Assembly: GCA_016124975.1 (NCBI GenBank)
Contig: WGMP01000004.1
Span: 186,001 to 250,000, forward strand
Length of the DNA stretch: 64,000 bases
Direction of reading: 5' to 3'
DNA from: Phycisphaera sp.
GTDB lineage: Bacteria; Planctomycetota; Phycisphaerae; Phycisphaerales; SM1A02
Shown here: piece after piece, positions 23,165-24,860 of the stretch
Position numbering within the stretch: the stretch's first letter is position 1
Layout of the letters: each line of letters starts with the position of its first letter
The notes under the pieces: model-generated
Told to the model about the DNA's origin: nothing
The model's database searches: none
The model's input: only the letters and a program-made list of their open reading frames with translations
Made by a program: the position numbers and the translations under genes

Positions 23165-23917
23165 TCAGGACTCGTCGACCTCCGGCTCGCTCGAGCCGGC
23201 GATCCGATGACGCATGAGGAGCCAGTCGCCGAGATCGGCGAGGCGGCACCGTCGCGAGCAGAACGGCCGCTCCGCGCGGTCTGCGGGTTTGCCCGAGCTC
23301 TCCGCGTCGAGCGGCGCGCCGCAGGTCGGGCACGATGGCGGCGCGATGCGCGGCGCCCGCACGAGGATCGCGAGTCCCTCCGCGAGGCGACGCGATTCTG
23401 CGCGCGGGAGTCCGACCTCCGACACGGTCGCGACACGGCCTGGTTCTGCACCGTCCTCGATCGGCTCGGCGTGTTCGATCGCGACGAGCACCGCACGCGG
23501 CGGAAGCGCCTCGCGGATCCGCTCAGGCCACTCGATGGCGATGATCGCGTCGGACGCGAGCAGCTCGTCGAAGCCGATCGAAGGAAGGTCGTCCGGAGCG
23601 AGGCGCCACGCATCGATGTGGACAAGCGGTCGCGCGCCGCCCGCGTGGTCCATGCGGATCGTGAAGGTCGGGCTCGACACGGCGCGCGGGTCCGAGCCGA
23701 CGCCATGGGCGAGCCCGCGCACGAGCGTGGTCTTGCCCGCGCCGAGCGAACCCGAGAGGAGAAGGAGCGGCGCCCCGCGTGATCGCGGTTCGCCCGCCGA
23801 CGCGAGGATGTCGCCGAGCACCTCGCCGAACTGCTCCATGGACTCCGCGTCGCGAAGATGGAAGGAGAGCGGGAGCTGCTCCGGCTGCAGGGGCCCGTGG
23901 CCCGAGGCGGAGTTCAT
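23165..23917 (-). CDS. tsaE: TsaE-YacG fusion: tRNA t6A ATPase plus DNA gyrase inhibitor zinc finger
   Basis: A 250-residue fusion. Residues about 20-190 are TsaE, the ATPase needed for N6-threonylcarbamoyladenosine on tRNAs: Walker A SGSLGAGKTTLVRG (K62), SSPTFT (81-86) and IAIEWPERI (127-134). Residues about 192-240 are a YacG-type zinc finger: CPTCG (C196, C199), RPFCSRRCRLADLGDWLL (C220, C224), the same pattern as E. coli YacG, which binds GyrB and inhibits gyrase. There is no stop or frameshift between the parts. ATG 23917 overlaps the thiL stop (ATGA), so translation is coupled. It is the last gene of the pgsA-pgpA-thiL-tsaE operon. Confidence 0.9.
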   Translation of the reverse strand: MNSASGHGPLQPEQLPLSFHLRDAESMEQFGEVLGDILASAGEPRSRGAPLLLLSGSLGAGKTTLVRGLAHGVGSDPRAVSSPTFTIRMDHAGGARPLVHIDAWRLAPDDLPSIGFDELLASDAIIAIEWPERIREALPPRAVLVAIEHAEPIEDGAEPGRVATVSEVGLPRAESRRLAEGLAILVRAPRIAPPSCPTCGAPLDAESSGKPADRAERPFCSRRCRLADLGDWLLMRHRIAGSSEPEVDES

Positions 23918-24852
23918 GGGTCCCCCCCGTCGCTCTCGTGCTCGAAACCCGCGTGGGTCGCGTCGAGCCATGCGTCTCCGTCGCGGACGCGCACGGACGG
24001 CGCGCCTCGAACGACCGACCCGATGCGCGTGATGGCGACGCCTGCGAGAACCGCGGGAACCTCCGCGCCCTCGCGCACCGTGAACGCGAGCTCGTAGTCC
24101 TCGCCTTGTGCGATGCCCGCGCGCGGGGCGATGCCGGCCGAGATCGGCACGCGGTCGAGCTCGATCTCGATGCCGGCGCCCGAGCGCGCCGCGATGTGAC
24201 CGAGATCGCGGCCGAGGCCGTCGCTGATGTCGATCATGGCGCCGAGCGCGTCGCCGAGGATGTCGTCGAGCGCGTGGGCGACCGCGAGGCGCGGCGTGAA
24301 GTCGAGGTGCCGTCCTCCTCCGTCCGCGCTCCAGGCGCCGCCGATCGTGCCTGTGACGAACACCGCGTCGCCGACGCGCGCGTTGCCGCGAAGCGCGTAG
24401 CGCGCGTCTGGGCGCCTCGGAACGGCGATGATCGCGACGGTCGCCTCGAGCGGCGCGCACGGATCGGGGCTCGAGGTGCGCGCTATGTCGCCGCCCACAA
24501 GCGGCGCGCCCCATGCGGCGCCCGTGTCGCGAAGGCCTTCGTAGAGGCGCCACGCGCGCGCCTCGTCGATTCCGCGCGGAAGAACCGCTGTGGCCACGAT
24601 CGCCACGGGTCTCGCATTCGCCATCGCGGCCACGTCGCTGATGTTCCTCAGCACCGCCTTGCGTCCGATGACATACGGGTCGCATCCCCACGGAGCGTGC
24701 CTGCCCTCGATGACGCCGTCCGCGGCGATCAGGATCTCGTTGCCGGCGCCGATCTCGACCACGGCCATGTCGTCGCCGGGCGGCACCGTCACCGACCTCG
24801 GCAGCAGGTCGTTCGACGCGAACACACGCGAGAGGAAGTCGAACTCGCGCAT
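23914..24852 (-). CDS. thiL: Thiamine-monophosphate kinase
   Basis: A 312-residue ATP-dependent kinase making thiamine diphosphate from thiamine monophosphate. MREFDFLSRV at the start, PPGDDMAVVEIG (first metal-binding aspartates), FVTGTIGGAW, AMIDISDGLGRDLGHIA and GIAQGEDYELAFTV are ThiL signatures of the PurM-like fold. The length is normal. ATG 24852 lies 8 bases after the pgpA stop, and its own stop overlaps the tsaE start by four bases. The longer frame upstream lies inside pgpA and is rejected. Confidence 0.95.
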   Translation of the reverse strand: MREFDFLSRVFASNDLLPRSVTVPPGDDMAVVEIGAGNEILIAADGVIEGRHAPWGCDPYVIGRKAVLRNISDVAAMANARPVAIVATAVLPRGIDEARAWRLYEGLRDTGAAWGAPLVGGDIARTSSPDPCAPLEATVAIIAVPRRPDARYALRGNARVGDAVFVTGTIGGAWSADGGGRHLDFTPRLAVAHALDDILGDALGAMIDISDGLGRDLGHIAARSGAGIEIELDRVPISAGIAPRAGIAQGEDYELAFTVREGAEVPAVLAGVAITRIGSVVRGAPSVRVRDGDAWLDATHAGFEHESDGGDP

Positions 24853-24860
24853 TCGGGCCT

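Follow-up and report, generated by a model that had tools for sequence, protein, structure and literature searches.

An in-frame TsaE–YacG fusion conserved within a planctomycete order

The two proteins that most closely resemble the parts of the gene described here are known as separate entities. TsaE (YjeE) is the ATPase of the bacterial t6A complex, and the nearest solved relatives of our protein, from T. maritima, B. subtilis and H. influenzae, carry no finger domain. YacG of E. coli (PDB 4TMA, 1LV3) is a free protein of 65 aa whose gene neighbours zapD and coaE; it is described as present in many proteobacteria, and its tryptophan inserts into GyrB while its tail spans GyrB and GyrA (PMC10886550). 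Residue 40 is given as F40 in one article, whereas the sequence has W and the review speaks of tryptophan (PMC10886550). A protein combining TsaE and YacG was described in none of the papers searched, in agreement with an earlier sequence-only reading of this DNA, although automatic annotation of the architecture in domain databases may exist.

The window, i.e. the whole 64,000-nucleotide stretch of planctomycete DNA that was analysed, contains an open frame of 250 aa on the minus strand (23165..23917, protein P0001), running from ATG at 23917 to TGA at 23165 with neither an internal stop nor a frameshift. Both Pfam domains scored above their cut-offs: TsaE (PF02367, residues 22–150, 23468..23854, minus strand) with about 100.5 bits (E = 8e-29, cut-off 26.6), and YacG (PF03884, residues 195–249, 23171..23335, minus strand; CPTC ... 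PFCSRRC) with 48.6 bits (E = 6e-13, cut-off 25.5). The N-terminal assignment was further supported by TIGR00150 (83.8 bits, NCBIfam cut-off 60.1) and by phmmer matches to the TsaE structures 5np9, 1htw and 6n9a, and the C-terminal part matched the YacG structures 4tma and 1lv3 in the same PDB search. The NCBIfam YacG equivalogs, which are built on free YacG of proteobacteria, matched below their cut-off (40.3 versus 83). Chance is excluded by the two Pfam E-values and by the recurrence of the fusion in 46 more genomes, and this recurrence also led us to reject a frameshift or assembly artefact. The TsaE–YacG fusion is thus confirmed as real and conserved, as the sequence-only reading had proposed from the open frame.

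Immediately upstream on the same strand lies a thiL-like (thiamine-phosphate kinase) gene (23914..24855, start approximate), whose product scored 181.7 bits against TIGR01379, just below the cut-off of 184.15. Its TGA overlaps the ATG of the fusion in the tetranucleotide ATGA (23917..23914), an arrangement from which the fused gene would probably belong to a translationally coupled operon with this thiL-like gene.

Compared with described TsaE, the N-terminal half has everything expected of a complete domain, including Walker A, the switch and the EW motif. The Walker A sequence GSLGAGKTT (residues 56–64, 23726..23752, minus strand) contributes G56, G59, G61, K62 and T63 to the columns invariant in 46 aligned fusions, which share 32–66% identity with the window protein; others include S82-P83 of the SPTF switch, H100, D102 and E129-W130 of the EW motif. 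The earlier claim of a complete TsaE ATPase is therefore upheld, with all three motifs intact and invariant. The C-terminal half shares with E. coli YacG the C-x2-C ... F-C-x3-C finger, the DLGxW helix and the acidic tail, and differs in forming the C terminus of a TsaE rather than a free protein. All four presumed zinc ligands (C196, C199, C220 and C224) are present in the window protein, and C196, F219, R223, D228, L229 and W232 are invariant in the 46 fusions. W232, in the motif DLGDW (23222..23224, minus strand), occupies the position of W40 in E. coli YacG, the residue that enters GyrB, and is followed by a free acidic C-terminal tail, LLMRHRIAGSSEPEVDES (23168..23221, minus strand), the putative counterpart of the tail that spans GyrB and GyrA. 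The finger, too, proved genuine, by its score, its four cysteines and the counterpart of the GyrB-contact tryptophan.

Conservation was less strict around the zinc site and the tail. With few exceptions YacG tails carry a net negative charge, whether the protein is fused or separate; in the window's genus the tail is acidic and short, with a sequence unlike that of other YacGs. One genus (g23: G037, G042, G046 and G050) has lost three of the four zinc cysteines, C-x-x-C having become C-P-T-T and F-C-S-x-R-C having become F-[IV]-D-x-R-A, and keeps D-L-x-x-W and an ISRP acidic tail (L052, L058, L049, L045). An AlphaFold model of one of these zinc-less fusions still has a finger region with the tryptophan-bearing helix (block pLDDT about 79–92). 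From this pattern we infer selection on the partner-binding surface. Separately, three species of the window's genus (L093, L094 and L096) have long, partly low-complexity insertions between the cysteine pairs of the finger, for example GGTSEGTSEGTSGG.

An AlphaFold model of the fusion, made from the 46 fusions, reached a mean pLDDT of 88, with the finger (block pLDDT 62–89) less sure than the TsaE part. In a Foldseek search the TsaE half matched solved TsaE structures (E about 1e-13), and matches were returned for that half only. In the model, TsaE ends with a C-terminal strand and a helix that reach about residue 185, and the helix passes almost directly into the finger with little linker. 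The model yields no gyrase interface, and no evidence was obtained for an interface between the TsaE and finger halves. Since the fusion point is the N terminus of YacG, which leaves the tryptophan helix and the tail free, the geometry is compatible with gyrase binding.

GyrB was considered as a clue to gyrase binding. The window genome's GyrB keeps the counterpart of F513, a residue that helps to form the YacG pocket, and the Gram-negative-type insert; however, F513 and its surroundings are conserved whether or not a genome has YacG, so the pocket was set aside as uninformative. In a single case, G020 (L148), GyrB has L at the E. coli F513 position, and the finger has been lost in the same genome.

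To place the fusion in context, we sampled 68 genomes of the order, comprising 61 genomes and 7 added from wider class sampling, with all counts made from tables. The fusion was found in 47 of the 68: the 46 aligned sequences and that of G004, in which a TGA ends the frame soon after the tryptophan codon. In 8 genomes tsaE and yacG are consecutive but separate genes, and in 9 TsaE lacks the finger and the whole genome gave no match to YacG. Of the remaining four, two were cut by contig ends and two were incomplete, with no TsaE seen. The separate genes have a 4-base ATGA overlap in G041, G049, G053 and G153, an overlap of 8 bases in G054, and gaps of about 11 (G187), 116 (G057) and 196 bases (G181), with start codons that we chose. 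On the GyrB tree, fused and separate states are intermingled in both halves of the order, and parsimony required 10 label changes in all, a count that includes outgroup labels and scores zinc-less fusions as fused. Loss of the finger takes four changes by parsimony on this tree, two of them forced by well supported branches. The fusion may have arisen repeatedly or have been split repeatedly.

Outside the order, YacG was present in 88 of 126 sampled members of the class, and yacG lay beside tsaE in none of these 88 genomes (compared by eye), the two genes being on different contigs or tens of kilobases or more apart. In the rest of the class and of the phylum, 20 stretches with long open frames surrounding YacG were likewise examined, and a TsaE domain was found in none. 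The search across planctomycetes that the sequence-only reading had envisaged therefore confines the architecture to the order among the genomes sampled, and the tsaE–yacG linkage, judged from gene order, appears to have arisen there. The free-standing YacG of other Planctomycetota shares the finger, tryptophan and acidic tail with the fusion, and differs in being encoded by a separate gene that never adjoins tsaE. Of 199 genomes drawn from across Planctomycetota, 126 gave YacG matches, so that this protein is widespread outside the proteobacteria from which it was described. In the two cases looked at outside the order (L076 and L079), yacG is downstream of dnaJ- and grpE-like genes (named by eye), which suggests an older link with a chaperone operon. 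G087 (L122, L123) has two near-identical YacG matches on two short contigs, reflecting either a duplicate or an assembly effect.

Within the window's genome, no second tsaE or yacG was found, an outcome bearing directly on the earlier question of a further yacG: there is one of each, both in the fused gene. TsaD (TIGR03723, 345.7 bits) and TsaB (TIGR03725, 75.8 bits) are encoded elsewhere in the genome, both over cut-off. If the organism needs both activities, the fused protein would be what supplies them. A conserved internal start giving a free finger was rejected as a rule, because 13 of the 32 fusions outside the window's genus have no ATG, GTG or TTG between the domains, and in those 13 the finger can be made only as part of the fusion. 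In the window's genus itself a GTG recurs ten codons before the finger, from which a free finger could possibly be produced.

Taken together, we lean, with modest confidence, towards a bifunctional protein in which each half retains its original activity and the two are linked for joint production. The N-terminal domain would act in t6A synthesis with TsaB and TsaD, and the C-terminal domain would bind GyrB and GyrA through its tryptophan and free tail and, like YacG in E. coli, keep gyrase away from DNA. In the proposed order of events, yacG would first have come to adjoin tsaE, translational coupling through the ATGA overlap would have followed, and in-frame joining would have come last, with the joining having happened more than once or the splitting having come later. 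The benefit would most likely be production in a fixed ratio rather than signalling between the halves. We favour this reading because some relatives encode the two proteins in separate, coupled genes and others do without the finger; covalent linkage is evidently unnecessary. It is also favoured by the completeness of both domains as sole copies in the genome, the presence of TsaD and TsaB, the invariant TsaE motifs and finger residues, the retention of the tryptophan and tail in the zinc-less genus, and the 13 fusions that have no start codon for a finger of its own. Against it stand the nine relatives that lack the finger, the short and divergent tail of the window's genus, and the lower confidence of the model in the finger.

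The same distribution weighs against a reading that we regard as unlikely, in which the finger has been repurposed and acts not on gyrase but for TsaE, for example by docking TsaD–TsaB or tRNA. TsaE works in a tRNA-handling complex (PMC9654439), the finger follows its C-terminal helix with little linker, and the window's genus has a modified tail, all of which would suit such a role. However, the 9 genomes that keep TsaE without the finger, through the four parsimony changes noted above, and the 8 in which yacG is a separate gene argue against a finger that serves TsaE, as does the invariance of the gyrase-contact tryptophan.

We give still less weight to cross-talk, whereby the ATP- or ADP-bound state of TsaE, or its binding to TsaB–TsaD, would expose or hide the finger and so control its binding to gyrase, making the protein a signalling device that sets gyrase activity and supercoiling according to energy state (ATP supply) or tRNA modification (the capacity for t6A). 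As a nucleotide switch, TsaE associates with TsaD–TsaB and comes off again (PMC9654439), both halves look intact in one chain, and the genome has no other copy of either. Yet the linkage is dispensable, given separate genes and finger loss among relatives, and the halves gave no sign of an interface. The sequence-only reading's proposal that supercoiling is functionally linked to t6A or to ATP use is therefore unsupported, since members of the order switch between fusion, coupled genes and a lost finger. Least probable is a neutral fusion, in which drift joined two overlapping genes and little or nothing remains of the finger's function: its repeated loss and the decayed zinc site of one genus fit this, but W232, D228, L229, R223 and F219 are invariant in 46 diverse fusions, the zinc-less ones included.

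The fusion brings tRNA modification and DNA topology, both of them housekeeping processes, together in one conserved protein. The occurrence of fused, ATGA-coupled, zinc-less and finger-lost states within one order amounts to a natural experiment on the requirements of YacG, namely the tryptophan and the tail and perhaps not zinc, and the same experiment bears on whether the functions of TsaE and YacG are related at all.
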